A stretch of DNA of 22,011 nucleotides from a virus, in the IMG/VR virus record IMGVR_UViG_3300008110_001003, positions 1-22,011 of that record; one strand, written 5' to 3'. Under the pieces are notes generated by a model. It did no database searches and was not told the origin of the DNA. It saw only the letters and a program-made list of their open reading frames with translations. Shown piece by piece: positions 488 through 17,784 of the stretch. Position numbers and translations under genes: made by a program. How positions within the stretch are numbered: position 1 is the stretch's first letter; each line of letters starts with the position of its first letter.

Positions 488-784
488 TTAGACCCGCTTT
501 GCGATTACTTGCTTGCTATGAAGCAGTAGGTACTTGTTTCCTTCTTCATCTTCAATTTCGGTACCAGAATGCTCTGGATAAAATACGATGTCTCCGATAT
601 CAAGCTCATTGATAGGAATAACCTCACCCTTGTAGTTTGGCTCACCGTCTCCCATATCAATAATCTCAGCCTGACTTGGGCCTTGCTCTGCAAATGCAGC
701 AGATAAAACTAATCCAGTTTTGGTTGTCTTCTCGCCGACTTCGATCTTCTTAATTAGAAGCATTGCTCCAATAGGTTTAATCAT
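488..784 (-). CDS. groES: GroES-like co-chaperonin (Cpn10)
   Basis: Ninety-eight residues, the normal Cpn10 length. The N-terminus MIKPIGAMLLIKKIE matches the first beta strand of GroES. A mobile-loop-like stretch (about residues 17-35) contains TGLVLSAA, and the end has D-I-G-D-I-V-F-Y and a C-terminal strand ending VIAKRV. GroES caps the chaperonin ring; phage versions such as T4 Gp31 replace the host lid to fold capsid protein. No GroEL is present here, so it would have to work with host GroEL. The open frame extends to a TTG at 799, but the ATG at 784 has GAGGA 8 nt upstream and overlaps the preceding small gene, so 784 is chosen. Confidence 0.85.
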   Translation of the reverse strand: MIKPIGAMLLIKKIEVGEKTTKTGLVLSAAFAEQGPSQAEIIDMGDGEPNYKGEVIPINELDIGDIVFYPEHSGTEIEDEEGNKYLLLHSKQVIAKRV

Positions 785-926
785 TTTCGTATTCCTCAAA
801 AGCTTTCTCTATTTTTCTTACTAGGACTGGCCCATTCTTGGATTCCCATTCCCGTTGCTCTGCTTCACGTTGACGCTTTTTATCTGCGCCGCTTATTGTT
901 TTATATTTTGGTACATTGAATGACAT
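777..926 (-). CDS. Small basic/charged protein, 49 aa, coupled to groES
   Basis: ATG at 926, TAA at 777-779, 49 codons, overlapping the groES start by 8 nt. The protein begins MSFNVPKYKT, then has a Lys/Arg/Glu/Gln-rich helical middle (KKRQREAEQREWE) and ends KAFEEYEND. No known domain is recognised. The overlap implies translational coupling to groES. It has no Shine-Dalgarno sequence; instead a strong promoter puts its -10 box 6 nt before the ATG, so it is probably the first, leaderless cistron of the groES-nuclease transcript. That promoter fit is the main reason to believe the gene is real. Confidence 0.6.
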   Translation of the reverse strand: MSFNVPKYKTISGADKKRQREAEQREWESKNGPVLVRKIEKAFEEYEND

Positions 927-932
927 TATCTA

Positions 933-961
933 ATAATACAATTTACTGCCCATATTGTCAA
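933..961 (-). promoter_or_regulatory. Promoter for the small gene-groES-nuclease operon
   Basis: On the minus strand TTGACA (956-961) and TATTAT (933-938) are separated by exactly 17 bp. The ATG follows the -10 box after 6 nt, so transcription is expected to start at or next to the ATG, giving a leaderless mRNA. The promoter sits directly downstream of tRNA-Leu. Confidence 0.75.
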
Positions 962-964
962 TAG

Positions 965-1037
965 TGCCCCTAATTGGATTCGAACCAATGCTGTATAGAT
1001 TTTAAGTCTACCGCCTCTACCGCTGGGCTATAAGGGC
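965..1037 (-). tRNA. tRNA-Leu(TAA), with a short class I variable loop
   Basis: A full cloverleaf folds: acceptor GCCCTTA/TAGGGGC (one G-T pair), anticodon stem GTAGA/TCTAT with loop CTTAAAA, T arm ATTGG-TTCGAAT-CCAAT, discriminator A, no encoded CCA. The anticodon TAA reads UUA (Leu). The variable loop is only 5 nt (ACAGC), although bacterial tRNA-Leu normally has a long variable arm. UUA is a sensible codon for an AT-rich phage. It lies 1 nt downstream of tRNA-Gly and shares its promoter. Confidence 0.8.
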
Positions 1038-1038
1038 T

Positions 1039-1112
1039 TGGAGCGGATGATGAGAATCGAACTCACCCCTTCTGCTTGGAAGGCAGAGGCACTACCAATA
1101 TGCAACATCCGC
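1039..1112 (-). tRNA. tRNA-Gly(TCC)
   Basis: Acceptor GCGGATG pairs fully with CATCCGC. Anticodon stem TCTGC/GCAGA has loop CTTCCAA, anticodon TCC (reads GGA/GGG). T arm is GTGAG-TTCGATT-CTCAT, discriminator T as expected for glycine, and CCA is encoded at 1039-1041. It is the first RNA of a two-tRNA unit with tRNA-Leu, and a promoter with its predicted start point at the 5' end lies just upstream. Confidence 0.93.
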
Positions 1113-1123
1113 ATGCTATATTC

Positions 1124-1152
1124 ATTATATAATATTTAAATTGGCGAGTCAA
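1124..1152 (-). promoter_or_regulatory. Promoter of the tRNA-Gly/tRNA-Leu unit
   Basis: TTGACT (1147-1152) and TATAAT (1124-1129) on the minus strand with a 17-bp spacer. The expected start point falls about 7 nt later, 0-5 nt before the tRNA-Gly 5' end. The -35 box lies inside the last codons of the 28-aa gene at 1136-1222. Confidence 0.75.
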
Positions 1153-1222
1153 GAGATTCGTCTATAGCATCATCTATTGTTCTTGTATGTTCTTTTGAAC
1201 AGTTACCACAGTCTTTACACAT
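1136..1222 (-). CDS. 28-aa CxxCxxC mini-protein
   Basis: ATG at 1222 with AAGGA 6 nt upstream; 28 codons to TAA at 1136-1138. The protein starts MCKDCGNCSKEH, giving three cysteines spaced CxxCxxC plus a His, then an acidic tail. This could bind Zn or another metal, but no family is recognised. It lies after a probable terminator hairpin and ahead of the tRNA promoter, whose -35 overlaps its 3' end. The good ribosome site and ordered Cys pattern favour a real gene; the short length keeps confidence moderate. Confidence 0.45.
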   Translation of the reverse strand: MCKDCGNCSKEHTRTIDDAIDESLDSPI

Positions 1223-1239
1223 CTTTTGTCCTTAAATAA

Positions 1240-1268
1240 ATATAGCCCCACGGTATGTGAGGCCATAT
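1240..1268 (-). terminator. Probable terminator after the three-gene unit at 1.3-1.9 kb
   Basis: Twelve-base-pair stem (including G-T pairs), arms 1257-1268 and 1240-1251, loop of 5 nt, followed on the minus strand by TTATTTAAG. It starts 13 nt after the stop of the gene at 1281-1484. The T-tract is imperfect, so it may be partial or serve as an attenuator for the 28-aa gene. Confidence 0.55.
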
Positions 1269-1280
1269 CTAGTTTGTAAC

Positions 1281-1484
1281 TTATACTTTCTTACGTCCAG
1301 TTTTTCTTGGTGGCTTAGGCGCATTGGTTGTTTCTCTACGAATTCCGTGCCTGTTTGTATCCACTTTAATACCAGATCTTAATCCTTGAGTAGGTCGCTT
1401 TCTTGTAGCTTCCTGACTTGTAACCGCACCTGAAGCAGATCCTGCTGCAGGTGGTGGTGCCATACCAGTTCCGTCCATTGACAT
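1281..1484 (-). CDS. Small basic Pro/Arg-rich protein, 67 aa
   Basis: Begins MSMDGTGMAPPPAAGSASGA and ends in a strongly basic, proline-rich tail (KPPRKTGRKKV). Probably disordered; no enzyme motif. The ATG overlaps the TAA of the preceding gene (TAATG), so the two are translationally coupled, and a terminator-like hairpin follows its stop. The Ala/Gly/Pro head and Arg/Lys tail would suit a minor virion or nucleic-acid-binding protein, but that is a guess. Confidence 0.7.
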   Translation of the reverse strand: MSMDGTGMAPPPAAGSASGAVTSQEATRKRPTQGLRSGIKVDTNRHGIRRETTNAPKPPRKTGRKKV

Positions 1485-1690
1485 TAGTCGATGTCCTCTC
1501 CAGTAGGGCCTTTCGGTTCGTTCATTTCATGTTCCATGTCTTCTTCAGTTTCAGTTCCAAGTGGGTTCATTGAGTCTGTTCCGAACATCATTGGCGAAGC
1601 CATTTGTCCTGGACCAACATCGTAAACATTTTGATTAGGCAATTCTACGCCCATGAATGCTTCTGAGCTGCATCCACACATTGCACACAT
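1484..1690 (-). CDS. Small Cys-, Met- and acid-rich protein, 68 aa
   Basis: The reading frame stays open to 1825, but that part overlaps the upstream gene. The ATG at 1690, 1 nt after the upstream stop, is the likely start. The protein opens MCAMCGCSS (three Cys), has a Pro/Gly/Met-rich middle and an acidic tail (EDMEHEMNEPKGPTGEDID). Its acidic tail contrasts with the basic tail of the next gene; the two might interact (inference). No family recognised. Confidence 0.65.
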   Translation of the reverse strand: MCAMCGCSSEAFMGVELPNQNVYDVGPGQMASPMMFGTDSMNPLGTETEEDMEHEMNEPKGPTGEDID

Positions 1691-1691
1691 A

Positions 1692-1886
1692 TTAGTTACC
1701 TGTGCCGAATGCTGATGTCTCTGCTGCAGTGTGAACCATCTTATTGGTTGTTCCAGCTTCACCTTGTGAAGACATGTCCTGTGCTGGGAATGCTGCACTT
1801 GGATCAGCAGCGTACTGCTCTCCAATAGTGTGCTGTACCGCTGGCTTTACTTCGTTAAATCCTGTTAAGTTCAATCCGTCTGTCAT
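1692..1886 (-). CDS. Small hypothetical protein, 64 aa
   Basis: Starts MTDGLNLTGFNEVKPAVQH, rich in Ala, Thr, Gln and Gly, without Cys or an evident membrane segment; probably partly disordered. TAGGAG lies 8-9 nt before the ATG. It is the first gene of a three-gene unit (64, 68 and 67 aa) with 1-nt spacing and TAATG coupling, served by its own promoter near 1942-1950 and a terminator near 1240. Three short low-complexity proteins packed together could be minor virion components, but no motif proves it. Confidence 0.65.
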   Translation of the reverse strand: MTDGLNLTGFNEVKPAVQHTIGEQYAADPSAAFPAQDMSSQGEAGTTNKMVHTAAETSAFGTGN

Positions 1887-1941
1887 TTTATTACTCCTAT
1901 AGGTTGTATTTAGATGGGTCTAGAAAGCCATCTATCAATAT

Positions 1942-1950
1942 ATTATAGCA
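1942..1950 (-). promoter_or_regulatory. Extended -10 promoter of the three-gene unit
   Basis: TGCTATAAT (TGn plus TATAAT) on the minus strand, TATAAT at 1942-1947. No convincing -35 hexamer is seen, as expected for an extended -10 promoter. The leader to the ATG at 1886 is about 50 nt and can form a 6-bp hairpin (AGATGG/CCATCT, about 1910-1933). Confidence 0.5.
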
Positions 1951-1959
1951 TTTAGTTGA

Positions 1960-2082
1960 TTAAGATCTGTAGTGCTTATCCCAGCATTGGTCACATATAT
2001 CTATGATCCCGCCCTCTGGCTTTGCTGCTATCCTAGTGGATTTATTCTTGCATCCACCCCACTCACAAATCTCACCAAACAC
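1960..2082 (-). CDS. 40-aa zinc-ribbon-like protein
   Basis: GTG start overlapping the upstream stop as TAGTG; 40 codons to TAA at 1960-1962. The protein (MFGEICEWGGC..., then IDICDQCWDKH) has Cys6, Cys11, Cys30 and Cys33, a CX4C...CxxC pattern typical of small phage zinc ribbons, perhaps for DNA or protein contacts. It is the third member of a chain of tiny overlapping genes (2218-2343, 2082-2225, 1960-2082). The ordered cysteines and the overlap support it. Confidence 0.6.
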   Translation of the reverse strand: MFGEICEWGGCKNKSTRIAAKPEGGIIDICDQCWDKHYRS

Positions 2083-2225
2083 TACTTAGAACCTTTGGCT
2101 GTTTGGCCACGGTACCCTGTCTTTTTCTTGTTCATAGATCCTGGCTTTTTAAATGCTGGCCCACCTGGTGTAGCGGCTATTCTCTGCTCTAAAGCTTTCT
2201 TAATCTTATCGTGGTGTTTACCCAT
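2082..2225 (-). CDS. 47-aa very basic protein
   Basis: ATG at 2225 with AGGA 9 nt upstream, stop TAG at 2082-2084. Starts MGKHHDKIKKALEQRIA and continues with Lys/Gly/Pro-rich sequence (TPGGPAFKKPGSMNKKKTGY) ending KGSK. High positive charge and likely disorder suggest nucleic-acid binding or a minor packaged protein, with no proof. It overlaps both neighbours. A 105-aa reading frame on the opposite strand here is a shadow. Confidence 0.6.
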   Translation of the reverse strand: MGKHHDKIKKALEQRIAATPGGPAFKKPGSMNKKKTGYRGQTAKGSK

Positions 2226-2343
2226 GTTCAATTTTCCTAACTATATATCTAATTACTTCGTATGGTCTCCACTCTGGAGGCAATTCTAAATATCTTATTT
2301 CGTCTAATATTTTTTCTCTTACTAGATCTTCAATGTAATCCAT
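2218..2343 (-). CDS. 41-aa helical protein, leaderless
   Basis: ATG at 2343, TAA at 2218-2220. Sequence MDYIEDLVREKILDEIRYLE then a Pro-Pro-Glu-Trp turn and a second helix (YEVIRYIVRKIEHG). No Shine-Dalgarno; the -10 box TAGAAT ends 6 nt before the ATG, so the mRNA should be leaderless. Its stop overlaps the next gene start. Short phage proteins of this type are usually of unknown function. Confidence 0.6.
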   Translation of the reverse strand: MDYIEDLVREKILDEIRYLELPPEWRPYEVIRYIVRKIEHG

Positions 2344-2349
2344 ATAGAT

Positions 2350-2378
2350 ATTCTAGCATTTTAATATTAAAGGGGCAA
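2350..2378 (-). promoter_or_regulatory. Leaderless promoter overlapping a terminator
   Basis: TTGCCC (2373-2378), 17-bp spacer, TAGAAT (2350-2355), then 6 nt to the ATG at 2343. The -35 box lies within the 3' arm of the terminator hairpin at 2372-2397. Confidence 0.6.
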
Positions 2379-2397
2379 GACCCTAGAGTCCTGCCCC
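2372..2397 (-). terminator. Rho-independent terminator of the 366-aa secreted protein gene
   Basis: Ten-bp G+C-rich stem (GGGGCAGGAC/GTCTTGCCCC with one G-T pair) and a 6-nt loop, starting 16 nt after the stop codon and followed on the minus strand by TTTAATATT. Strong stem, moderate T-tract. Confidence 0.8.
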
Positions 2398-2412
2398 TCA
2401 ATATTAGGCCTG

Positions 2413-3513
2413 TTACTTCTTTAGGGCAACCTTAGCCTTTGGATTCTTTGCGTTCCACTTCTTAGCAAGAGCGTTGTACTCCGCCTTGTACTTTGCTGCT
2501 GCTGTCGCAAGAGCTAAGTCTGATGCCGCCTTTGCAGTTACTGTTGCTGAGTCAGATGCTGCCTTTGCGTCTGCAAGTGCCTTATCTGCTGCAACCTTAT
2601 CTGCTGCACGACCAGCCTTCTCTGCTGAGAGAACGTTTGCTGCTGCCTGTGCATCCAGTGCACGACCAGCCTTCTCTGCTGCAAGCTGCGCTGTGAGTGT
2701 TGCAACTGTTCCATTAAGATCGGAAATTGTAAATGCTGCTTGCGCTGCCTTTACTGGTGCTGATAATCCAGCAACTGTTGCTGCTGATGTAGCGCCTGTT
2801 ACAACAACTGTGACTGTTCCAGAAACTCCAACCGCAAGAGATGCAGTCTTTGATCCAGCGACTAGTGTTGTGTCTGCAGTTGCTTCTGCTGTTGTAGAAG
2901 TAACCAATGTCTTTGTAATTGTTCCATCTGCAAAGGATGATCCAAGTACTGTTGCAGTAATTGTTTCACCTGTCAGTACTGGGTTTCCAAATACGTCTGT
3001 AGCAGATACAGTTACTGTTGGAATTGTGCCAACTGCTGATGCTGCTGGTACTGCAACCGCAACATTTGATGCTGCTCCTGCGTTACCTTTGATGTAAACA
3101 ATAGTTGAATAAGCGCCATTTGTAATGGTAACTGTTCCAACCTTTACGCTTGTTGTGTAAGCATAAACTGTTAACGCTGCTCCAGTAGATGTAACTGAAA
3201 GTGTTGAAACACCAGACGCAATTGTCTTTGGTGAATCTGTTGTGTGTAATGCAGTTACAAGTTTAATTGTATCTGACGCTACAAATGACACAACTGTTGC
3301 TGTGTCTGCTGTTGCTGCAAGAGCCACGGATGTTCCAGATGTGATCTGGTTTGCTGCGGGTACTGCAACTGTTGCTGGTGCTACAGAAGTTGTTGCGTTA
3401 TTAACTGTTGCAACCGTTACGGCTAGCGGTGCTGCCGATGATGGTGCTACAGAAAAGCTTGCAAAAGCTAGGGCTGCAGCAGTAGCAATTGCGATTTTCT
3501 TGAATGAGTTCAT
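2413..3513 (-). CDS. Secreted Ala/Thr/Val-rich surface-type protein, 366 aa
   Basis: Clear Sec signal peptide (MNSFKKIAIATAAALAFASF... with cleavage near residues 24-28, APSSAA). Residues about 30-265 are Thr/Val/Ala-rich beta sequence reminiscent of Ig-like repeats (for example TVTVSATDVFGNPV). Residues about 275-345 are an Ala/Lys/Asp coiled coil with a repeated AEKAGRA element, and the end is basic (KKWNAKNPKAKVALKK). It has no enzyme motif. The style is that of actinobacterial surface or S-layer-like proteins. The codons look more GC-rich than neighbouring genes, and it has its own leader and terminator, suggesting cargo acquired from a host. AAGGAG lies 11 nt before the ATG. A role in coating or altering the cell surface is inference. 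Confidence 0.8.
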   Translation of the reverse strand: MNSFKKIAIATAAALAFASFSVAPSSAAPLAVTVATVNNATTSVAPATVAVPAANQITSGTSVALAATADTATVVSFVASDTIKLVTALHTTDSPKTIASGVSTLSVTSTGAALTVYAYTTSVKVGTVTITNGAYSTIVYIKGNAGAASNVAVAVPAASAVGTIPTVTVSATDVFGNPVLTGETITATVLGSSFADGTITKTLVTSTTAEATADTTLVAGSKTASLAVGVSGTVTVVVTGATSAATVAGLSAPVKAAQAAFTISDLNGTVATLTAQLAAEKAGRALDAQAAANVLSAEKAGRAADKVAADKALADAKAASDSATVTAKAASDLALATAAAKYKAEYNALAKKWNAKNPKAKVALKK

Positions 3514-3564
3514 TCTATTTATTTCTCCTTATTTTTGTCTGCCTCTTGATGAGCGCAGAAGTTT

Positions 3565-3579
3565 TGTGATACATTCACA
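3565..3579. promoter_or_regulatory. Palindrome TGTGA-N5-TCACA upstream of the secreted protein gene
   Basis: A perfect 5-bp inverted repeat around 5 bp, 52 bp before the ATG at 3513. It resembles CRP/GlxR operators but the spacer is 5 rather than 6. The 100-bp gap 3514-3615 otherwise holds the AAGGAG ribosome site and no convincing -10/-35 pair. Confidence 0.3.
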
Positions 3580-3615
3580 CTATGTAAGACGTTTTTCTAA
3601 TTGAAATGTCGCTAT

Positions 3616-3786
3616 CTAGTGTAATTCATTTACTTTTACATGGAAAGAACACGGGTCTCCGCCCTCGTCCCATTCTTGCATTTCTTCATCTGACATAGGG
3701 GGACCGTCATGAGTATCGCAAAATACATCTGAGATCCAACCTTTATCGTAGCCATACTTCATCCATGCATCAAATTCTAGATCCAT
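3616..3786 (-). CDS. Small acidic phage protein, 56 aa
   Basis: ATG at 3786 inside the end of the thioredoxin gene (10-nt overlap), TAG at 3616-3618. Contains WMKYGYDKGWISDVFCDTHD, then Pro-Pro-Met, an acidic Glu-rich stretch and GGDPCSFHVKV. This Cys-Asp-Thr-His-Asp-Gly ... Gly-Asp-Pro-Cys layout is one I recognise from small unnamed actinobacteriophage proteins. Two Cys and a His could hold a metal. Function unknown; co-translated with thioredoxin. Confidence 0.7.
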   Translation of the reverse strand: MDLEFDAWMKYGYDKGWISDVFCDTHDGPPMSDEEMQEWDEGGDPCSFHVKVNELH

Positions 3787-4079: not shown

Positions 4080-4546
4080 TATGCCTCCACATGTGTAGGC
4101 CAGAAGTAATTACAAGCCTCGCAGCAAGTATACCCTAGCTCTTTGTAATCTGCATAATCACTATAAAACCAATAGTGGTCAGGATCCTTTTCAAACAATC
4201 TTCCTTTGTGAGTATAGTGAACCTTGTCATCACCCAACCACCAAGGCTTCTCTGACTCTAGTCCTAGAAAGTTTTCTTCATATATCTCATCAAATTGGAT
4301 ATGTGTAGTATTCTTATACCCACGTAGGACTATATCCTTAATGATAGCTTCATTGTACAGGAACAACCAATCTTCATGCCCCCGCCACATTTTAACTGCT
4401 GGATGATTACTCCATGCACCACTTGAGTACATGCCAGCCAATGATTTTAGAATCTGTAGATTCTCAACGCTTTGCTTAATTAGTCTTTTGCGATCAAGAT
4501 GCTCTGCTGTATCTTGAAAGTCCGCCTCTGGTAAAAATGTTTGCAT
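4079..4546 (-). CDS. MSMEG_6728/pyrimidine-dimer glycosylase-like family protein
   Basis: Starts MQTFLPEADF, followed by LDRKRLIKQSVENLQIL, NHPAVKMWRGHEDWL and a C-terminal CCEAC. This matches the actinobacterial MSMEG_6728-like family, often annotated as pyrimidine dimer DNA glycosylase. I know the family name from established annotation; the activity is not proven by motif here. The frame is open to 4582, but the extra 12 residues are encoded by the promoter and do not fit the family, so ATG 4546 is chosen: the -10 box ends 7 nt before it and there is no ribosome site, hence a leaderless mRNA. Coupled to thioredoxin downstream. Confidence 0.8.
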   Translation of the reverse strand: MQTFLPEADFQDTAEHLDRKRLIKQSVENLQILKSLAGMYSSGAWSNHPAVKMWRGHEDWLFLYNEAIIKDIVLRGYKNTTHIQFDEIYEENFLGLESEKPWWLGDDKVHYTHKGRLFEKDPDHYWFYSDYADYKELGYTCCEACNYFWPTHVEA

Positions 4547-4553
4547 GATACCT

Positions 4554-4582
4554 ATTCTACTAAATAGCTCAAGGCTAGTCAA
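4554..4582 (-). promoter_or_regulatory. Leaderless promoter of the MSMEG_6728-like/thioredoxin operon
   Basis: TTGACT (4577-4582), 17-bp spacer, TAGAAT (4554-4559), 7 nt to the ATG at 4546. The stretch CTATTTAGTAGAATAGGTA is identical to the promoter at 5715-5743. Confidence 0.8.
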
Positions 4583-4797: not shown

Positions 4798-5707
4798 TTA
4801 GCGCTCCTTGTAGATTAATTAGCTTACCAATATTAGCTTTACCCTTGACGATGGTACCTGTTCTTGATAATAGATTATAGATATCTGTTAGACTGCCAGC
4901 CTTTACTTGCTTGACTGCAATCCATTGTGCTGCTGCCACCTGAGTAGCAACAGATGTTCCAGCGGCATTCTTTGTCGTGCCTCCTGGAAGAAACACTCGC
5001 ATAGTTCCATTAGCATAGAAGTCTAGAAGAGCATTATCTCCATTTGAATATAACTCAATGCCAAATCGTGTAGCAGAACCTACCGAAATTGATTCTGGAA
5101 TACATGCGGGCCAATCAATTCGTGTATAGTCTCGGTTATTGCCTGCTGCAAAGAAGGCTGGGATGTTTGATGAAGCTAGGGATTGAACCAAAGCCTTAGT
5201 TCTTGGTGTGATGGGGCAGTAGTCTTTGTAAAGACCTAATTCGTGATGTCCTTGTGACATTGCGATTGCCTGAATGTTAAACTTATCTTTGTTATTTGCA
5301 ACCCACTGAAGAGCATTTACTACCGTATCCTCTGATGTTATTTGACGATCAGCATTGATGTTCTGACCAATAATGCGAACAAATACAATCTTCATATTAG
5401 GGTTAGCCTGAATTGCTGCTGAGGCCATCTGTGTTCCGTGGTCAAAGCCACTCTTAGAATATAGTTCTGGCTTAAGTGTTGATGATCCAGGACCTTCCAT
5501 AAACGACTGTCCGTTTGGGCATGTTGTCCATTCAAGGATGCATACCTCGTAAGCGATCTTATCTTTAAAGATTGGTAGCGATGTGTCTAATGCTGTATCA
5601 AGGATAGCGAGTGTTGGAGCTACCGTTTGATTTTTAAGAGAAGCATTAGCTGTTGTTGGTACTAGTAGTGTAAGGGCAATTAAAGCCGCAGTTATTTTTT
5701 TATTCAT
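4790..5707 (-). CDS. Secreted subtilisin-like serine peptidase (S8)
   Basis: Sec signal peptide MNKKITAALIALTLLVPTTANA with cleavage after residue 22. Subtilase triad in order: Asp37 (AILDT), His90 (GFDHGTQMA), Ser252 (AAGTSVATQ), with oxyanion Asn190 (FFAAGN). The mature part is about 283 residues, a near-minimal S8 domain without a clear propeptide. Cys56/63/164/202 could form disulfides outside the cell. The frame is open to 5743, but those residues are promoter sequence; ATG 5707 gives the signal peptide directly and lies 7 nt after the -10 box (leaderless). Exported peptidases are unusual phage cargo. It might process host surface proteins or the secreted phage proteins here (inference). 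Confidence 0.88.
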   Translation of the reverse strand: MNKKITAALIALTLLVPTTANASLKNQTVAPTLAILDTALDTSLPIFKDKIAYEVCILEWTTCPNGQSFMEGPGSSTLKPELYSKSGFDHGTQMASAAIQANPNMKIVFVRIIGQNINADRQITSEDTVVNALQWVANNKDKFNIQAIAMSQGHHELGLYKDYCPITPRTKALVQSLASSNIPAFFAAGNNRDYTRIDWPACIPESISVGSATRFGIELYSNGDNALLDFYANGTMRVFLPGGTTKNAAGTSVATQVAAAQWIAVKQVKAGSLTDIYNLLSRTGTIVKGKANIGKLINLQGALNG

Positions 5708-5714
5708 AGTACCT

Positions 5715-5743
5715 ATTCTACTAAATAGATACCGATACGTCAA
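5715..5743 (-). promoter_or_regulatory. Leaderless promoter of the subtilase gene
   Basis: TTGACG (5738-5743), 17-bp spacer, TAGAAT (5715-5720), 7 nt to ATG 5707. The -35 box includes the TGA stop of the upstream 59-aa gene. Confidence 0.8.
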
Positions 5744-5919: not shown

Positions 5920-6224
5920 TCCATACTCTCTCTATCTACTGGGGTTGGTGCTGTTGCTAGATTACCGCATTCAGCACACAACATGTCTAAGAAATATGTT
6001 GCTATTTCATAGTTTTCAAAAACTGTTCTGACATACCATTGGCTTGAGCCACATGTGCAGACATGCGTAGGTGTTCCACGAAGGTCTAGTCCTGTTGGCG
6101 CTTCGTCTTCGCCAAGATCATTCTTATCAAAAACAAGTAGCTCGTACTTGCTAAAGAAATTTTTGATCGCTCCTACTGAAATAAGTCCAAGTAGTACTGC
6201 AGCCAATCTATTTAGCCACTTCAT
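5916..6224 (-). CDS. Membrane-anchored zinc-ribbon protein, 102 aa
   Basis: An N-terminal hydrophobic segment (KWLNRLAAVLLGLISVGAI, residues 2-20) is followed by an acidic linker and a C-terminal domain with HVCTC (CxC) and MLCAEC (CxxC), a zinc-ribbon pattern. Topology is unclear: a signal anchor is most likely. Function unknown. There is no Shine-Dalgarno; the -10 box TATAAT lies 6 nt before the ATG, so this is another leaderless start. The promoter lies within the 3' end of the upstream Ntn-hydrolase gene. Confidence 0.75.
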   Translation of the reverse strand: MKWLNRLAAVLLGLISVGAIKNFFSKYELLVFDKNDLGEDEAPTGLDLRGTPTHVCTCGSSQWYVRTVFENYEIATYFLDMLCAECGNLATAPTPVDRESME

Positions 6225-6230: not shown

Positions 6231-6259
6231 ATTATACTCTAAACTTGAATGTATGTAAA
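6231..6259 (-). promoter_or_regulatory. Leaderless promoter for the 102-aa membrane protein
   Basis: TTTACA (6254-6259), 17-bp spacer, TATAAT (6231-6236), 6 nt to the ATG at 6224. Confidence 0.75.
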
Positions 6260-6796
6260 GGGGGGAGCGACTGCCATATTAAATTCAGCAGCAGCCTCTA
6301 GCGCAAGCTTTAAGCGCATCTTAGGATTCTTTTGATTCTTTGTAGCGTGTAATGCACCCAATGCAATTGTTCCACCACTACCTTCTGCCATATAGTTAAC
6401 TATGTTTTCTCCAACGTGAAAGTCTTCATCTACAGTAAAGATTCTACCTTCAAGTCCGACTATAAAGATCCCGCCTTCATCTTCTGCTCCAGCCTGAGAT
6501 ACGCTTCCAAAGCCGTGTCCTCTAAAGGCATCCTTAACAGAGTCAATAAACTTAGTTCTCATAAACTTATCTAATCCAGAATTAGTTTTTGTGGGAGTAT
6601 ATTTTGGTGGTGTCCAGGAGTACTGGAGTATCTGTCCCATACGAAACGAATCCGTAAAGGCAATGCCGTACTGTCCAACCTTAAAGCACTTAGGCTCTTT
6701 TCTTGACAGGATCCATCCCGTTTTGTCATCTGATGCGGCGTGATCGGAACCCATGTAAACTGTTCCATTTTGGGCAATTGCTACTATACAGGTCAT
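6239..6796 (-). CDS. Proteasome beta/HslV-like Ntn hydrolase
   Basis: One hundred eighty-five residues starting MTCIVAIAQNGTVYMGSDHA. After Met removal the N-terminal residue would be Thr, the nucleophile of proteasome beta and HslV subunits. Asp18 in GSD matches the conserved Asp17, and Lys36 in EPKCFKVGQYGIAF sits where the catalytic Lys33 strand lies. The later EGSGG and ALGALHATKN resemble the beta-subunit GSG region. Such enzymes form rings that degrade proteins; no ATPase partner is visible, so it may use host partners or act on a few phage or host proteins. TATACT 6 nt before the ATG suggests a leaderless mRNA. Confidence 0.78.
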   Translation of the reverse strand: MTCIVAIAQNGTVYMGSDHAASDDKTGWILSRKEPKCFKVGQYGIAFTDSFRMGQILQYSWTPPKYTPTKTNSGLDKFMRTKFIDSVKDAFRGHGFGSVSQAGAEDEGGIFIVGLEGRIFTVDEDFHVGENIVNYMAEGSGGTIALGALHATKNQKNPKMRLKLALEAAAEFNMAVAPPFTYIQV

Positions 6797-6802: not shown

Positions 6803-6808
6803 AGTATA
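6803..6808 (-). promoter_or_regulatory. -10 box of the Ntn-hydrolase gene
   Basis: TATACT, 6 nt before the ATG at 6796. No convincing -35 hexamer at the expected distance. Predicts a leaderless start. Confidence 0.5.
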
Positions 6809-7152: not shown

Positions 7153-7158
7153 ATTATA
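7153..7158 (-). promoter_or_regulatory. -10 box before the 104-aa membrane/coiled-coil gene
   Basis: TATAAT, 9 nt from the ATG at 7143, leaving a leader of only 2-3 nt if transcription starts 7 nt downstream. No strong -35 box. Confidence 0.45.
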
Positions 7159-8430: not shown

Positions 8431-8462
8431 TTCCTATCTAGTAAGTCCGCCTAGATTTTTTG

Positions 8463-8535
8463 CTGGCCCACTAGGATTCGAACCTAGGACCTAGAAGTTA
8501 ACAGCTTCCCGCTCTGCCTGCTGAGCTATGGGCCA
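8463..8535 (-). tRNA. tRNA-Asn(GTT)
   Basis: Complete cloverleaf: acceptor TGGCCCA/TGGGCCA, D stem GCTC/GAGC, anticodon stem GGAAG/CTTCT with loop CTGTTAA (anticodon GTT), T arm CTAGG-TTCGAAT-CCTAG, discriminator G as usual for asparagine. No CCA is encoded. Its promoter lies at 8563-8592. Confidence 0.95.
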
Positions 8536-9269: not shown

Positions 9270-9413
9270 TTAGTTCTCCTTTATGCTAATGACTTTAACG
9301 TTTTTTATTTCATCATCTACGCCAAATATATCATTGGCATAATCTAAGGCGTCGCCCTCATCAAATGCTTGTACTTCTGCAGTGACCTCTAGCTTAACCC
9401 TGTAAGTATTCAT
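9270..9413 (-). CDS. 47-aa beta-alpha-beta small protein
   Basis: ATG at 9413 directly after the endolysin TAA; TAA at 9270-9272, 1 nt from the next ATG. Sequence MNTYRVKLEVTAEVQAFDEG, then DALDYANDIFGVDDEIKN and VKVISIKEN, predicted as strand-helix-strand. The EVTAEVQAFDEGDALDY pattern is one I associate with short conserved phage proteins of unknown role. It fills exactly the gap between the endolysin and the head protein and carries the ribosome site for the latter. Confidence 0.65.
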   Translation of the reverse strand: MNTYRVKLEVTAEVQAFDEGDALDYANDIFGVDDEIKNVKVISIKEN

Positions 9414-10408: not shown

Positions 10409-10616
10409 TTGTTATTTCCTGTTCTGGTGTTGTAGGTGTAATTTTTATTACATCTTTTGTACAAGTTTGTGAGGCCTCACATACTGGTGGATTACATTCC
10501 TTGAGTTCCCAATTTGCGGGATCTTGGCAGGAATAACGGTATCTATTTAAAGAGTCGCATCCAGTTAATGATAGCATTAATAGCCCAGATAGGGCAATAG
10601 TGATTAATTTCCTCAT
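10401..10616 (-). CDS. Small lipoprotein, 71 aa
   Basis: Signal peptide with a clear lipobox: MRKLITIALSGLLMLSLTGC, with Cys20 expected to be lipidated. The mature part is about 52 residues with four more Cys (SCQDP, KECNPPVCEASQTC) and a Thr/Pro-rich end. Placement beside a holin-like gene recalls o-spanins of Gram-negative phages, but an actinobacterial host makes that role doubtful; superinfection exclusion is another option. TATAAT 6 nt before the ATG indicates a leaderless mRNA. Confidence 0.82.
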   Translation of the reverse strand: MRKLITIALSGLLMLSLTGCDSLNRYRYSCQDPANWELKECNPPVCEASQTCTKDVIKITPTTPEQEITNG

Positions 10617-10622: not shown

Positions 10623-10628
10623 ATTATA
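10623..10628 (-). promoter_or_regulatory. -10 box of the lipoprotein-holin-endolysin operon
   Basis: TATAAT 6 nt before the ATG at 10616; no good -35 at 16-18 bp. Predicts a leaderless lysis transcript. Confidence 0.5.
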
Positions 10629-10630: not shown

Positions 10631-10813
10631 CTAATCCGTTTCTTTATTTCTAGCAGGGCTTGTAATTATCCATAGGCCTGTAGTTGCTATAATTCCATAG
10701 CCAACTATAGTTTTAGCACTTCCGTCAAGGACTACCCAGGCTATAAACATTCCGAGAAGGGTCCAGGCCTGATCAATTAGATCCTTGATTATATTTTTTA
10801 GTATTCTTACCAT
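10631..10813 (-). CDS. Small membrane protein, 60 aa, possible holin
   Basis: A basic/amphipathic start (MVRILKNIIKDLIDQ) is followed by two short hydrophobic segments (AWTLLGMFIAWVVLDG and TIVGYGIIATTGLWIIT) and a charged tail (SPARNKETD). Size and topology fit small holins or antiholins. GAGGAGG precedes the ATG, which overlaps the end of the 851-aa protein gene by 7 nt, so both are made together. With the 136-aa protein it could form a two-component holin system (inference). Confidence 0.75.
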   Translation of the reverse strand: MVRILKNIIKDLIDQAWTLLGMFIAWVVLDGSAKTIVGYGIIATTGLWIITSPARNKETD

Positions 10814-13362
10814 TTTCTACCTCCTCGTGAACCTGGTGAATTTGCTCCTGAGCCTCCACCAGAACTTCCTCCGCCTCCTGTGCTACCACCTGTGGCTCCT
10901 CCTGCGGCAACTGCTGCGGCATTAATTGCTGCACCTGCAGCAACAACTGTAGCAACAACCATATCTGTTGCCTCTTCTCTTTCTGCATCAGACATATCTG
11001 CCCCAATGCTTCCAAATGCAGCAAGCGCTGCCGCTGGGTTTGTAAATAATTCTTCTACTAAAGCTCCTGGATCTTGTAGCAACTCTACTTGTGCAGCAAC
11101 TGCTGCAGTAATTACAACAGCATTTCCATTTTCATCTGTTCTAACATCTACTGGTGTTGCCGCTGGAAGATCTTTATATTCAATTCCAGATGCTTTAATA
11201 TCTGCAGAGCTTACTGCTTCTCCTGGCTTTAGATCTTCAATTAATGTAGCAACTACCGCATCCTTTTGTTCTTCAGTTAATTCTTTGCCTTCTTTAGCAT
11301 CTTCTATTGCTTTTTCAAGGGCTTCTTTTTCAGCTTCTTTTGCTTCCGCCTCAGCCTTTAATTTATCCGCTTCCGCTTGCTTTGCTTCCGCCTCAGCTTT
11401 AGCATTTGCTTCTTCTTGTGCTTTTGCTTCCGCCTCAGCCTTTGCATTTTCTTCTGCTTGTCTTGCAGCCTCAGCCTCGGCCTCTAACCTTTCAGCTTCT
11501 GCTTTAGCTTCTGCATCTGCTTGCTCTTTAGCTTCTTGCTCTGCCTTTGCTGCAGCCTCTTCTGCTGCTACACGATCTGCTTCTGCTTTAGCCGCTGCCT
11601 CTTCTGCTGCTACACGATCTGCTTCTGCTTTAGCCGCTGCTTCTGCGGCTGCCTTTGCTTCGGCTTCTGCTTTTGCTGCAGCTTCTGCAGCTGCTTTAGC
11701 TTCTGCTTCTGCTTTAGCCGCTGCTTCTGCGGCTGCCTTTGCCTGTGCCTCTGCTTGCGCTGCTGCAGTTTCTGCTGCTGCAGCTTCTTGTGCTGCTTGC
11801 TGTGCCGCTGCTTCTGCGGCTGCCTGAGATGCTGCTTGTTGTGCAGCTCTCTGTTCTGCGTAATAATTTGTAGTAACCTGTGCAGCATTTGTCATTGCTA
11901 TTACTGCCTCATTTACTTTTGTAGTTGCTGTATTTGCAAGAGTGTCTGCAGCTTGAACTGTCGCCGTTGCAGTTTCTGTAATCTGATTTAAAATTGCAAC
12001 TTCTGCTGCTTTAATTTCTGTTTTATCTACTACTACTGCTTCAGCAGTTGTTTTTTGTGTTTGCAATGTATTTAGAACTGCAGTGTCTGCTACAAGTACT
12101 GCTACTGCTTCATTCTTTTCTTGAACCAAAGTGGTTAATTCTGCAGTTTCAGTGGCAACTACTGCTGTTTGACTTTCAATTTGAGCAGTGAGTTCTGTAT
12201 TAGTTACATTTGTCATTGACTGAACTGGCTCTCCAGCGGACTCACGGACACCAATTCTTGGACCATTATAAAGATTTGTTGTATTACCAGCAACCGTTCC
12301 AACACCAGTCCATTCGCCTGTTGTAGGATTTACTGTCATTGTCCAATTAACATTTGTAATTGGTCCGTTGTTGTCGCCAAATCTGTGCAGATCCCAATCG
12401 ACAGCTAAAGTTGTTTCTGTAGTTGTAACGGTTATTCCAGCACCTGGACCAGCACTCATAAAGTCAGAAGCATAAACAGATATATGAGGACCTGCTGGGA
12501 AATCCCACCAGTTATGATCTCCAGTACCAAAAGTAATAGTTGCCTTTGAAGTCACATATATTTGGCTATTAGCACCTTGTCCTTCATAAACAGTGTCTCC
12601 CATTTTTATGTCAAAAGGGGTTTCAATTTTAGTTGATCCATCCCACATAACTGGTAAAACTGTAGTAGTAACGTTTGGAGTGTCTATTGTTTCTGGAGCC
12701 ACATATCCTTCAGTTGTATAAGTTGTAGAATCTGATGGGGTATTCTTAAGAGTATTCAATTCTGATGTTTCTGTATTTACTACAGTAGTCTGTGCATTAA
12801 CAGCGGCCTGAGCTATTGCTACATTTGCTGTGTCTATAGCGACTACAGCAGTTTGTGACTCTACTTGCTTAGTTACTGTATTTAATGCTGTCTGAGCATT
12901 ATTTAAATTTGTTGTTGCTTCTGCAACCACTGCCGTTTGTGACTCAACAGCTGCCGCTGCTGTTGTAGCAACAGATATTGCTGTTTCAGCAGACTGAATT
13001 GCTGTTGTAGCTTCTTGTACCTTTATTGTAGCCTCTGCTACTGCAGTAGCAATTGGCTCTTGTGTAGTAGCAATTGTAGCTGCTTGCTCTGTTGTTGTAT
13101 TAGGAACATTTGCTTGAATTGTTGTTGTTATAGCAGATGCTTGTGTTTCTGCCGTTTCCTGCAATGTTTCTGCTGCTGCTTCAACCTTATCTGCAACTAT
13201 CTCAACTGTAATAGGAGTGGTTGCTGTAGCGGTATCTGAAGAAGGATTTGCTGGTGTTACCTGAACTGTAACTTCTTCAGCATTTGCAATACTTGGCCCA
13301 AAAAGGAAAAGCCAGCCGATTATAAGAAGGCTGGTTAGGTAATACTTTATCTTTCTAGTCAA
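10807..13362 (-). CDS. Large secreted TolA-like coiled-coil protein with central beta domain, 851 aa
   Basis: TTG start with AGGAG 8 nt upstream. Signal peptide residues 1-28 (SLLIIGWLFLFGPSIANA). Residues 40-210 are Ala/Thr/Val-rich helical repeats. Residues about 218-375 are a globular Trp/Gly-rich beta domain (for example FGTGDHNWWDFPAGPHISVY). Residues 390-500 repeat the first type, and ESQTAVVA occurs at about 140, 168 and 396. Residues 500-690 are a long Ala/Glu/Lys coil with 14-aa tandem repeats. Then comes a mixed domain (about 690-820) with two Ala-rich hydrophobic stretches, and a Gly/Ser-rich end (GGSTGGGGSSGGGSG). It is probably a long exported fibre on the cell surface or spanning the wall. 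It leads the lysis region. Low complexity makes homology claims unsafe. Confidence 0.8.
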   Translation of the reverse strand: MTRKIKYYLTSLLIIGWLFLFGPSIANAEEVTVQVTPANPSSDTATATTPITVEIVADKVEAAAETLQETAETQASAITTTIQANVPNTTTEQAATIATTQEPIATAVAEATIKVQEATTAIQSAETAISVATTAAAAVESQTAVVAEATTNLNNAQTALNTVTKQVESQTAVVAIDTANVAIAQAAVNAQTTVVNTETSELNTLKNTPSDSTTYTTEGYVAPETIDTPNVTTTVLPVMWDGSTKIETPFDIKMGDTVYEGQGANSQIYVTSKATITFGTGDHNWWDFPAGPHISVYASDFMSAGPGAGITVTTTETTLAVDWDLHRFGDNNGPITNVNWTMTVNPTTGEWTGVGTVAGNTTNLYNGPRIGVRESAGEPVQSMTNVTNTELTAQIESQTAVVATETAELTTLVQEKNEAVAVLVADTAVLNTLQTQKTTAEAVVVDKTEIKAAEVAILNQITETATATVQAADTLANTATTKVNEAVIAMTNAAQVTTNYYAEQRAAQQAASQAAAEAAAQQAAQEAAAAETAAAQAEAQAKAAAEAAAKAEAEAKAAAEAAAKAEAEAKAAAEAAAKAEADRVAAEEAAAKAEADRVAAEEAAAKAEQEAKEQADAEAKAEAERLEAEAEAARQAEENAKAEAEAKAQEEANAKAEAEAKQAEADKLKAEAEAKEAEKEALEKAIEDAKEGKELTEEQKDAVVATLIEDLKPGEAVSSADIKASGIEYKDLPAATPVDVRTDENGNAVVITAAVAAQVELLQDPGALVEELFTNPAAALAAFGSIGADMSDAEREEATDMVVATVVAAGAAINAAAVAAGGATGGSTGGGGSSGGGSGANSPGSRGGRKW
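11537..11760 (-). repeat. 42-bp tandem repeats in the coiled-coil region
   Basis: Five or so imperfect 42-bp units encode 14-aa repeats of the types AKAEAEAKAAAEAA (three) and AKAEADRVAAEEAA (two). ACACGATCT recurs exactly 42 bp apart at 11570 and 11612. The array is in frame, so copy-number change would lengthen or shorten the rod without a frameshift. Confidence 0.8.
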
Positions 13363-14604: not shown

Positions 14605-14675
14605 CTTCAGGTGCAGGAATCGGACCTGCGTTGTCAGGTTCGGAACCTGGAGTACTACCATTATACGAACCTGAA
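14605..14675 (-). tRNA. tRNA-Arg(CCG), divergent
   Basis: Acceptor TTCAGGT/ACCTGAA pairs fully, D stem GTAT/GTAC with one G-T pair, anticodon arm CCAGG-TTCCGAA-CCTGA with one outer C-A mismatch (anticodon CCG), T stem GCAGG/CCTGC. The T loop reads TCCGATT, so position 55 is C instead of the near-universal T. No CCA encoded. Arg identity follows from the anticodon only. Confidence 0.65.
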
Positions 14676-14684
14676 TTAAACTTG

Positions 14685-14757
14685 CGCCCCTGGCAGGAAT
14701 CGAACCTGCTACGCAGACCTTAGAAGAGTCTCGCTCTATCCAATGAGCTACAAAGGC
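14685..14757 (-). tRNA. tRNA-Arg(TCT)
   Basis: Acceptor GCCTTTG/CAGGGGC (two G-T pairs), D stem GCTC/GAGC, anticodon arm AGACT-CTTCTAA-GGTCT (anticodon TCT, reads AGA/AGG), T arm GCAGG-TTCGATT-CCTGC, discriminator G. AGA is the Arg codon favoured in AT-rich genes. It starts 5 nt after the stop of the gene at 14763-15074. Confidence 0.93.
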
Positions 14758-14762
14758 CTGAC

Positions 14763-15074
14763 CTAATCGTTAGGAATATCCCCTGTATCCATTTGAATTA
14801 TTCCAAACTCTTTAGCCGCTTCTCTTCCCTCATCTGTCAACTCTATAGTTGCAACTAAATCTTCGTCATAACTTACGTTAACTAAACCAAGGTTATATAG
14901 AGACATAAGAGACTCGTCGACATGCCTTGAATGGGCTTCCCATAATTCTGGGGCTAGGTCTTTTGCTAATGGGGTTATGGCATATATGAACTGACCATCT
15001 TCTGATATACCAGCAACTTCAACAGCGCCGATCTCAACATAATGATCTAACTTATCGTTCTCTTCTTCTTCCAT
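14763..15074 (-). CDS. Small winged-helix-like phage protein, 103 aa
   Basis: Acidic N-terminus (MEEEENDKLDHYVEIGAVEV), then helices and the stretch SLYNLGLVNVSYDEDLVATI followed by ELTDEGREAAKEFGI. This Leu-Gly-Leu ... Leu-Thr-Asp-Glu-Gly pattern is typical of winged-helix folds (helix, wing, helix) and of a recurring unnamed actinophage protein. DNA binding is plausible, not shown. It lies between tRNA-Met and tRNA-Arg(TCT) with only 13 and 5 nt of spacing, so RNA processing must separate the tRNAs from its mRNA. GGGGGTG lies before the ATG. Confidence 0.75.
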   Translation of the reverse strand: MEEEENDKLDHYVEIGAVEVAGISEDGQFIYAITPLAKDLAPELWEAHSRHVDESLMSLYNLGLVNVSYDEDLVATIELTDEGREAAKEFGIIQMDTGDIPND

Positions 15075-15087
15075 TTAGCACCCCCAG

Positions 15088-15162
15088 TGCAACAGGTAGG
15101 ACTTGAACCTACGAATAACCGAATTATGAGTTCGGGGCCTTAACCAACTTGGCTACTGTTGC
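15088..15162 (-). tRNA. tRNA with CAT anticodon (Met, or Ile2)
   Basis: Acceptor GCAACAG/CTGTTGC, D stem GCC/GGC, anticodon arm CCGAA-CTCATAA-TTCGG, T arm GTAGG-TTCAAGT-CCTAC, discriminator A. The G1-C72 pair excludes an initiator tRNA of normal type. Elongator Met and lysidine-modified Ile cannot be told apart from this sequence. No CCA encoded. Confidence 0.93.
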
Positions 15163-15169
15163 CAAGTCT

Positions 15170-15421
15170 CTATTGTAACGTACCGTCTTCGTTTTTGTCA
15201 ATAGTTTCTTCTACTATCTGCTGTACATATTCAGAGAAATGTTTTCTTATATTTCCCATAGGTCTTGAACCCAAGGCTCGCCAAATTCTTTTATACTCTA
15301 CGACATTAGAAAATGTGGTAGGGCAAAGCGGTACGCCATTGTATTCTTTAAGTACAGTTGGTAGAGGAACGTGTTTACCGCAACACTTACACTCTTTAGC
15401 TTTTTCTTGATATATGCTCAT
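15170..15421 (-). CDS. Small zinc-binding protein after terminase, 83 aa
   Basis: Starts MSIYQEKAKECKCCGKHVPL with a Cys cluster, then YNGVPLCPTTFSNVVEYKR giving a further Cys, and a helical tail (NIRKHFSEYVQQIVEETIDK). The Cys spacing resembles a degenerate zinc finger, loosely like HNH-endonuclease zinc modules, but no HNH His/Asn residues are clear. The ATG overlaps the TerL stop (ATGA), so it is co-translated with terminase. The tRNA-Met promoter lies in its last codons. Confidence 0.75.
   Translation of the reverse strand: MSIYQEKAKECKCCGKHVPLPTVLKEYNGVPLCPTTFSNVVEYKRIWRALGSRPMGNIRKHFSEYVQQIVEETIDKNEDGTLQ
15172..15201 (-). promoter_or_regulatory. Promoter of the tRNA-Met/Arg cluster
   Basis: TTGACA (15196-15201), 18-bp spacer, TACAAT (15172-15177); the tRNA begins 9 nt after the -10 box. 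Lies inside the end of the 83-aa gene. Confidence 0.7.
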
Positions 15422-17223
15422 AGTATCTTCATTCTCTCCATCGATTCTCTCAAGTCATCTGGCATTCTTGGAGCACGTATCATATTTTGAACATACTCTT
15501 TTTCGCCATCTGAATCTACATTAAAGTCATTGTCAAAACTCATTGACTCATATGTATGAATTTTAATTTCTCCGCCCACGTCTGCCCTTGTTCTACTAAT
15601 TGAATTAAATATAGAACCGCATACAGCATCTGCCAAGTCCTTGGATCCCTTTCTAGGGTGATCTACTCTGTCACGCATAATCTTTAACTGAAGTAATTCA
15701 TCTATAAGCAATGGTATGTGAGGCCCAGATAGTCTTTCTTCTAGAACCACCATGGCCATATCGTCGTAGTGCTTCTTTGCTACAGACAAGATTTCTGTAT
15801 TGATTCCATAAGCCTTTAGCTGCTGCATCATGTCGTGAGAGTTCCATCGGTCAAATGTGCACACAACTATATTAAATCCACGGGTTCTTAAGGACAAAAT
15901 ATAATCTTTAACTTCAGTAAAATCTACTGACTTATCTGGTGTAGGTGTCCAATACCTTACCGCATCTACTGAAACAATAGGGGCTGGCTGAGAGTATTCA
16001 TTTGTAACCTTTATATTAACCCATCTATCTACATGCGCCATAGCTACTGCACAATGGTCGTGCTTCTGAGCCAAGTCTACGTGTAGGAAATATTTCTTTT
16101 CTGGATCTGGCTGAAACCATTCTTCTAGTCTTCCAAAACTATCTACGGCTAATCCTGTATTGTTAAATGCTCTCTCAACTTTTTCTCTAGACTTAAAGAA
16201 TGCATCAATCATTTCTGGTGGCATGCAGGCAAATCTACCAAGAGCATCCATAGAGTTCTTGTAGAACGCTACTTTAAAATCTTCAATACTTCTTGTAGGA
16301 TTTACTTCCCATGTTGGTCTGCGTAAAGCGTATACCTTTGGAATAAGATAAGAGTTAATGTGATCCTCTTCCCACTCAATCTCAAACTCGTTTCCCTCAA
16401 CTCCATCTGGAAGCTCGGTATCCATCTTAAACTTATGTGATCTAATTAGAGTTTGCTTCTCAGCAATAACAGAATCATAAAACTTTTGAATAGGGTCATT
16501 CTTAAAGCGTGGAAACGAAAGCAAAATAACCTTACCGAAGTCTGGGAAGCGTGAGTCTACCGATGCACGATACATCTCATATATAGCATCAGCTGTCTTA
16601 GCCTGATCATGCCCTGTAGTATTTTCAATAGCAAAGCCTGAAATTTCATCAAGGATAACTACGATTACGTTATAGCCTTCCCATGCTTCACGCTCTGAGT
16701 GTCCTGAGTGTACTGTTATGGCCTTGTCAAACTTCATCTCTGAAGCCTTAGACTCGTACTTTCCTACGAACCACGGAGACCTATCGATTCTTGTTTTAAA
16801 ACCCTTAAAGAAAACATTGTTAGCCTGCTGTGAGTTGATAGCAATATTTAAAATATCGATTGAGTCCCCAGGAGGTTTACCGTAATATGTGGCTGGATCT
16901 TTTAGACATAGTAATAGGTACACGATATAAGATACAGCAATAGTTGATGAGTAATCTTTACCAGAGCCTTTACCTAATTGTGCAATAACTTCGGTGCAGG
17001 TCTGCTTATATATTCTTTCGCCTTCATCATCGCCAAATAACTTTTTAAGAGTAGCCTCTTTGTATATCTGAGAGCTTTTTTCAATAAGGGTGTATTGTAA
17101 TTCAGAAAGTGGTGGCAGACCTAAATACTCTGGGCTAGTGACAAATGTCCGTAGATCAACTGGACGCTCTTCAAATTCTTCTCCGTCAAGTATGTCGATA
17201 AGGTCATCAAAACTAAATTCCAC
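15418..17223 (-). CDS. terL: Terminase large subunit (TerL)
   Basis: Six hundred one residues. It packages DNA into proheads: an N-terminal ATPase drives translocation and a C-terminal RNase-H-like nuclease cuts the concatemer. Walker A-like GKGSGKD is at residues 84-90 and Walker B VVILDE at about 188-193 (Asp192, Glu193). Nuclease acidic residues are Asp383 (HVDLAQ), Asp458 (CTFDRW) and Asp532 (KDLADAV). Both halves look intact. The start overlaps the putative small subunit by 11 nt. The product is expected to pair with that subunit and dock on a portal, which is outside this window. Confidence 0.95.
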   Translation of the reverse strand: MEFSFDDLIDILDGEEFEERPVDLRTFVTSPEYLGLPPLSELQYTLIEKSSQIYKEATLKKLFGDDEGERIYKQTCTEVIAQLGKGSGKDYSSTIAVSYIVYLLLCLKDPATYYGKPPGDSIDILNIAINSQQANNVFFKGFKTRIDRSPWFVGKYESKASEMKFDKAITVHSGHSEREAWEGYNVIVVILDEISGFAIENTTGHDQAKTADAIYEMYRASVDSRFPDFGKVILLSFPRFKNDPIQKFYDSVIAEKQTLIRSHKFKMDTELPDGVEGNEFEIEWEEDHINSYLIPKVYALRRPTWEVNPTRSIEDFKVAFYKNSMDALGRFACMPPEMIDAFFKSREKVERAFNNTGLAVDSFGRLEEWFQPDPEKKYFLHVDLAQKHDHCAVAMAHVDRWVNIKVTNEYSQPAPIVSVDAVRYWTPTPDKSVDFTEVKDYILSLRTRGFNIVVCTFDRWNSHDMMQQLKAYGINTEILSVAKKHYDDMAMVVLEERLSGPHIPLLIDELLQLKIMRDRVDHPRKGSKDLADAVCGSIFNSISRTRADVGGEIKIHTYESMSFDNDFNVDSDGEKEYVQNMIRAPRMPDDLRESMERMKIL

Positions 17224-17749
17224 TTGCGTCCTCTATGACGACAGACTCCACGATCCCAGTAATCTGAGACAATCTCTTAGCAACTTCCATCTTACACTTA
17301 GGACAGGTAGATGTTACTTCTTTTAATATCTTTACTAATACTTCCTGCTTACGTTCCGCCTCCGCAATTTGAGATGCCAACTCATTATTCTCAAGAACTC
17401 CAACAGACTGAAGCATTCCAATTCGTTTAGTTTCAATATCTGCAATTAACTTCAAGGCGCCTGCCTTAACGTTCAGCTGTCCTTGTGTATCGGCGTCCTC
17501 AACGGTCTTCCAGGCCTCTTTGATGAGCATGGCATAATGTTGGTCTGCACCTGAGATCGCCTCTTTAGCACGGTCTCTAAGGCTTGTATCGTTGTGAATT
17601 ACAGACTTCCACTCATCAATAAATTCAATTACCTCCTTACGGCTAAATCCCGTAAGGGTGGCAATTTGAGTAGGGCTGTTACCCTTAAGTAGTTCTTCTA
17701 CAACCTTATTCATACGGTCATAATGGATTGCTGGTTCTATTTCAGACAT
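17213..17749 (-). CDS. terS: Putative terminase small subunit / HTH protein
   Basis: One hundred seventy-eight residues directly upstream of TerL with an 11-nt overlap. Residues about 14-45 (LLKGNSPTQIATLTGFSRKE) form a helix-turn-helix. A long helical region (60-145) could oligomerise, and TCPKC (Cys149, Cys152) lies near the C-terminus. Small terminases bind the packaging site and feed DNA to TerL. Position, HTH and size all fit; family membership cannot be checked here. ATG lies 6 nt after TATAAT with no ribosome site, so the terminase mRNA is probably leaderless. Confidence 0.78.
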   Translation of the reverse strand: MSEIEPAIHYDRMNKVVEELLKGNSPTQIATLTGFSRKEVIEFIDEWKSVIHNDTSLRDRAKEAISGADQHYAMLIKEAWKTVEDADTQGQLNVKAGALKLIADIETKRIGMLQSVGVLENNELASQIAEAERKQEVLVKILKEVTSTCPKCKMEVAKRLSQITGIVESVVIEDASGI

Positions 17750-17755
17750 AATACC

Positions 17756-17784
17756 ATTATACTTCTAGTTGACTGAAATAGCAA
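17756..17784 (-). promoter_or_regulatory. Leaderless promoter of the terminase operon
   Basis: TTGCTA (17779-17784), 17-bp spacer, TATAAT (17756-17761), 6 nt to the ATG at 17749. It overlaps the end of the upstream 113-aa gene. Confidence 0.7.

Follow-up and report, generated by a model that had tools for sequence, protein, structure and literature searches.

The IMG/VR virus fragment IMGVR_UViG_3300008110_001003 was analyzed as one window of 22,011 bases, in which the assigned protein genes all lie on the minus strand and eight of them carry a promoter -10 box so close to the ATG that leaderless mRNAs are predicted. The window, with a guanine-plus-cytosine (GC) content of about 40%, holds six tRNA genes, a WhiB regulator gene, terminase genes, an endolysin-like gene, and RecA-like and RuvC-like genes. 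The small terminase reached its best identity (49%) with the small terminase of Streptomyces phages, and the large terminase was up to 64% identical to its relatives, which include those of Coruscant and Blueeyedbeauty (Stanwilliamsviridae). Because of the WhiB gene and the terminase relatives among Streptomyces phages, the DNA was assigned to a phage of an actinobacterium; the nearest isolates infect Streptomyces and Rhodococcus and, with the WhiB gene, point to an actinobacterial host. Candidatus Nanopelagicales, suggested by GC content and protein style, is only a guess, and two scans of bacterial genome contigs using the surface protein and the HslV alignment as queries returned no relatives.

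A strong -10 box was defined as a match of at least 5/6 to TATAAT that includes TA and the final T, and the gap as the number of nucleotides (nt) between the end of the -10 box and the ATG. The eight sites, all on the minus strand and named by the position of the ATG, were as follows.

926 (minus): open reading frame (ORF) of 49 residues, first gene before groES; -10 box TATTAT at 933..938, gap 6; -35 box TTGACA at 956-961.
2343 (minus): ORF of 41 residues; -10 box TAGAAT at 2350..2355, gap 6; -35 box TTGCCC at 2373-2378.
4546 (minus): pyrimidine-dimer DNA glycosylase, first gene before thioredoxin; -10 box TAGAAT at 4554..4559, gap 7; -35 box TTGACT at 4577-4582.
5707 (minus): secreted subtilase-like protease; -10 box TAGAAT at 5715..5720, gap 7; -35 box TTGACG at 5738-5743.
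6224 (minus): ORF of 102 residues; -10 box TATAAT at 6231..6236, gap 6; -35 box TTTACA at 6254-6259, within the 3′ end of the HslV-like gene.
6796 (minus): HslV-family N-terminal nucleophile (Ntn) protease; -10 box TATACT at 6803..6808, gap 6; weak -35 box at 17 base pairs (bp).
10616 (minus): Rz-like spanin lipoprotein, first gene of the lysis operon; -10 box TATAAT at 10623..10628, gap 6; no conserved -35 box.
17749 (minus): small terminase subunit; -10 box TATAAT at 17756..17761, gap 6; TTGCTA at 17779-17784, in the upstream gene.

Checked by position, each of the eight ATGs proved to have a -10 hexamer whose end lies 6-7 nt before it, and in six cases (926, 2343, 4546, 5707, 6224 and 17749) the quoted -35 hexamer stood exactly 17 bp above the -10 box, as an earlier sequence-only reading of this DNA had described. 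Strong -10 boxes at gap 6 or 7 preceded 8/47 assigned gene starts and 6/766 other ATGs (both strands). The scan against shuffled sequence proposed in that reading gave six matches to the full pattern of quoted hexamers on the coding strand and none on the other, with a mean of 0.07 and a maximum of 2 in 300 dinucleotide shuffles; this count is partly circular, as the hexamers came from the finding under test. The loose pattern TANNNT-N6/7-ATG showed only a mild excess (30 matches on the coding strand against 20 in shuffles), as might be expected if -10-like hexamers, common in AT-rich DNA, fell before a few ATGs by chance. For these two reasons independent evidence was sought, and three lines were free of circularity: conservation in relatives, a pyrimidine at -1, and a spacing spike in the independently annotated genome of Coruscant.

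Conservation was assessed in 160 related loci, obtained from two viral-contig scans with the small terminase and the HslV-like protease as queries. All 182 distinct orthologous upstream regions with an aligned start kept the -10 box, at gap 6 in 148 and at gap 7 in 34. By locus, the site was kept in 4/4 distinct orthologs at 926, 8/8 at 2343, 16/16 at 4546, 41/41 at 5707, 13/13 at 6224, 45/45 at 6796, 19/19 at 10616 and 36/36 (those with an aligned start) at 17749. The -10 box was nearly invariant by position and most nucleotides between it and the ATG varied; what is conserved is the spacing, not the sequence, between the two. Shine-Dalgarno sites were found in 0% of orthologs at seven of the eight loci and in 6% (1/16) at 4546, bearing out the claim that these starts lack a ribosome site, and in 60%-100% of orthologs at many downstream or long-gap starts. 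The small gene starting at 9413 (minus strand) has no such promoter in the window; 24/47 of its orthologs have one, and in every case the gap is 6 and the base at -1 a pyrimidine, a pattern reported here as putative gain or loss of a promoter with fixed spacing.

The same spacing was found in whole genomes. When the coding strands of five relatives of 105-117 kb were pooled, strong -10 boxes combined with a -1 pyrimidine numbered 57 at gap 6, 20 at gap 7 and about 9 at other spacings, and the gap-6/7 sites of these relatives showed an excess of T at -15 and of G at -14. In Coruscant (MT711976), a Streptomyces phage annotated by others, TANNNT stood at gap 6 in 14/158 plus-strand starts examined and no more than three times at any other spacing up to 15. 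The -35/-10/ATG pattern was matched in 16/16 phage records searched, and five named Streptomyces and Rhodococcus phages gave 33 matches compared with none for a reversed-pattern control. In phage T4, used as a control, 85 starts gave one site at gap 6 and none at gap 7, with no spike. The difference between assigned starts and other ATGs in the window, the retention of the site in all orthologs at the eight loci, and a sharp spacing spike that T4 lacks led us to reject chance and AT-richness, to which next to no credence can be given.

The position of the predicted mRNA end was examined through the base at -1. Bacterial RNA polymerase prefers to start with a pyrimidine at -1 and a purine at +1. 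A pyrimidine occupied -1 in 168/182 orthologous upstream regions and in 324/1091 at other genes; by gap, the figures were 134/148 at gap 6 and 34/34 at gap 7, the result expected of transcription that begins on the A of the ATG. An unlikely alternative is that the promoters are real and make leaders of 1-5 nt, with the ribosome still finding an AUG near the 5′ end. The 1-2 nt variation in polymerase start choice, the 34/182 upstream regions at gap 7 and the spacing at another gene would fit such leaders, but the -1 pyrimidine stays fixed to the ATG at both gaps. That other gene is a near-miss outside the eight:

7143 (minus): membrane-anchored coiled-coil ORF; -10 box TATAAT at 7153..7158, gap 9.

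Among 33 orthologs of this gene the gap was 9 in 19, 10 in 11 and 8 in 3, and the triplet before the ATG was ATA, ATT or ATC in 31/33. The conserved gap of 8-10 predicts a leader of about 3 nt, and the mRNA probably begins AUH-AUG, in which AUH would be a 3-nt leader or may itself serve as a start.

Leaderless readings depend on correct start codons, and starts in metagenomic contigs are predictions. If the true starts lay further downstream, the annotated ATGs would be wrong and the mRNAs would have normal leaders. Several of the eight starts are, however, fixed independently by features of the predicted products. In the HslV family, a threonine must be N-terminal after removal of methionine. 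The product of 6796 begins MT, which fixes its start because Thr2 would be the N-terminal nucleophile. The product of 4546 aligned with the pyrimidine-dimer glycosylase profile from position 1, signal peptides (judged by eye) begin at the 5707 and 10616 starts, and residue 9 of the small terminase aligned with position 10 of PHROG 9507. Start codons in the 182 orthologs were ATG in 178 and GTG in 4 (four of the eight orthologs of 2343, at the same place), with no TTG, compared with TTG in 50/1124 at other starts. Wrong start codons were rejected from the HslV threonine, the glycosylase profile and the signal peptides, and with every ortholog keeping ATG or GTG at the same place, downstream starts are hardly credible.

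When the match to TTGACA was averaged over orthologs, it peaked at 16-17 bp for 926 (at a spacer of 17), 2343, 4546, 5707 and 6224 and weakly for 6796; no peak was found across orthologs at 10616 or 17749. Of the six -35 boxes claimed earlier, all are present in the window, but TTGCTA at 17749 was not conserved as a -35 box. By reading the sequence, the -35 boxes of 6224 and 17749 were placed inside the last part of the gene upstream, a position at which conservation may reflect coding, and the TTGCCC of 2343 in a hairpin resembling a terminator, on its 3′ arm. This hairpin (GGGGCAGGA...TCTTGCCCCTTT, 2343-2402) overlaps the -35 region of 2343, and the layout is kept in relatives. The glycosylase (4549-4567) and subtilase (5710-5728) promoters, both on the minus strand, have the common core CTATTTAGTAGAATAGGTA, and ATTTAG directly before their -10 boxes, although it is non-coding, shows strong conservation among orthologs. 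TTTAGTA ahead of the -10 box was considered as an extended element specific to the phage and rejected: it occurs at 4546, 5707 and a few sites in relatives and was overall no commoner than a reversed control.

Leaderless-type starts were confined to genes separated from their upstream neighbor: they made up 8/18 of the starts lying 10 nt or more from the gene upstream (gapped starts) and 0/29 of overlapping or abutting starts (p = 1.4e-4), and the gaps before the eight were 14-69 nt. The remaining 10/18 gapped starts lack the geometry. Those with the longest gaps (73-116 nt: 1886, 3513, 14512, 13976 and 21009) mostly have Shine-Dalgarno sites, in 44%-100% of orthologs; for 1886, 14512 and 13976, -10 boxes lie 55-106 nt before the start. 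Two gapped starts come after a tRNA gene, tRNA-Asn and tRNA-Met (8462-8535 and 15087-15162). Both tRNA genes are preceded by TTGACA-18 bp-TATAAT/TACAAT and immediately followed by a protein gene, which suggests tRNA-mRNA cotranscripts. Operons may therefore begin with a leaderless start but need not; the operon-start rule proposed by the sequence-only reading is right in that such starts occur only at gapped starts and wrong in that most gapped starts are of another kind. Its list of leaderless terminase, lysis, groES, peptidase and thioredoxin operons likewise holds for the predicted first genes, but groES (784), thioredoxin (4079) and the large terminase (17223) come second in their operons, behind the 49-residue protein, the pyrimidine-dimer glycosylase and the small terminase, respectively, and have Shine-Dalgarno-like sites that differ in strength.

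Taken together, these sites are real and conserved, and they very probably give leaderless mRNAs at the eight genes by the ordinary actinobacterial route. Leaderless mRNA is supported because of the -10 position, its conservation, the -1 pyrimidine, the restriction of starts to ATG and GTG, and the independent phage Coruscant; promoter placement, conservation, lack of Shine-Dalgarno sites and association with gapped starts were seen directly in the sequence. Two points weigh against this conclusion. RNA polymerase may start 1-2 nt off and leave leaders of 1-2 nt, especially at gap 7; and the orthologs share ancestry, so that the 182 are not independent and the independent units are the eight loci and Coruscant.

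In the proposed sequence of events, the eight sites would act as sigma-70/sigma-A-type promoters, with the host primary sigma factor assumed, and their placement would make RNA polymerase start on the first base of the start codon, leaving the mRNA leaderless. The 5′ ends and the use of the ribosome are both inferred: the host ribosome would initiate on a 5′-terminal AUG (or GUG) without a Shine-Dalgarno site, and downstream operon genes, which overlap their neighbors, would be read through Shine-Dalgarno sites or coupling. A likely benefit is compactness, as promoter and start signal would fit within the 14-69 nt between genes.

This arrangement was compared with known leaderless systems. Leaderless genes of actinobacteria are marked by TANNNT roughly 12 bp ahead of the start (Zheng et al., 2011; PMC3160421) and average 19.2% of genes; in polycistronic transcripts only the proximal gene can be leaderless and distal genes usually need Shine-Dalgarno sites (PMC3160421). 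The window resembles these genes in -10 box, distance, lack of Shine-Dalgarno sites, operon-proximal position and share (8/47, or 17%), and differs in belonging to a phage of about 40% GC with near-consensus -10 boxes, whereas high-GC hosts have the degenerate TANNNT. A leaderless first gene followed by Shine-Dalgarno genes is the published actinobacterial layout (PMC3160421, PMC4633059), and the suggestion of a distinct phage translation strategy was not supported by the comparison: this is not a new mechanism but a well-conserved instance in a phage clade. A phage-specific strategy, with leaderless starts as the rule for all operons and translation shifted to them during infection, would accord with their confinement to gapped starts and recurrence across the clade, but the ten other gapped starts, several with an upstream -10 box and a Shine-Dalgarno site (e.g., 1886 and 14512), and a leaderless share near the actinobacterial average make it very improbable. 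Only slightly less doubtful is a regulated operon-first class (small terminase, lysis, proteases and repair) whose translation would be favored in infection and which would include 7143 as an AUH-AUG variant with a 3-nt leader.

As in mycobacteria (Shell et al., 2015; PMC4633059), only ATG or GTG occurs at the predicted +1; there the starts were shown by RNA-seq, ribosome profiling and reporters, and here they are inferred from sequence. In Deinococcus-Thermus (PMC12340547), leaderless expression is likewise driven by a -10 motif lying only a few bp ahead of the ORF, whereas several sites here also have a conserved -35 box at 16-17 bp. Among phages, lambda and P2 (cited in PMC4633059) also have genes with a leaderless transcript, and gene 90 of mycobacteriophage Adephagia is a putative case (PMC11373665); these are single genes, compared with about one-sixth of the genes in the window. 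Stanwilliamsviridae phages of Streptomyces have related terminases and a related gene order, and Coruscant shares the gap-6 spike, but the small terminase start, leaderless here, is not so in Coruscant, Francob or Rhodococcus phage Grayson, in which its promoter is not conserved. A literature search turned up no transcriptome of a related phage reporting leaderless starts.

The comparative evidence over many related phages indicates that a large actinophage clade carries many predicted leaderless genes. Annotation that relies on Shine-Dalgarno scoring, whether by gene callers or by annotators, may put such starts in the wrong place or overlook them. In actinophages the -10/ATG spacing and the -1 pyrimidine can serve as start-site evidence, and the spike in cultured Coruscant makes the prediction testable at once. 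The remaining interest lies in actinophage start annotation and in the odd AUH-AUG start of 7143.

Two side observations were also recorded. The HslV-family Ntn protease (6239-6796) is about 84%-100% identical in 80 related viral contigs, and many phages encode distant relatives of it. The ORF at 10807-13362, which lies upstream of the lysis genes, comprises 851 codons, with a signal-like start and a long repeat stretch rich in alanine, glutamate and lysine.

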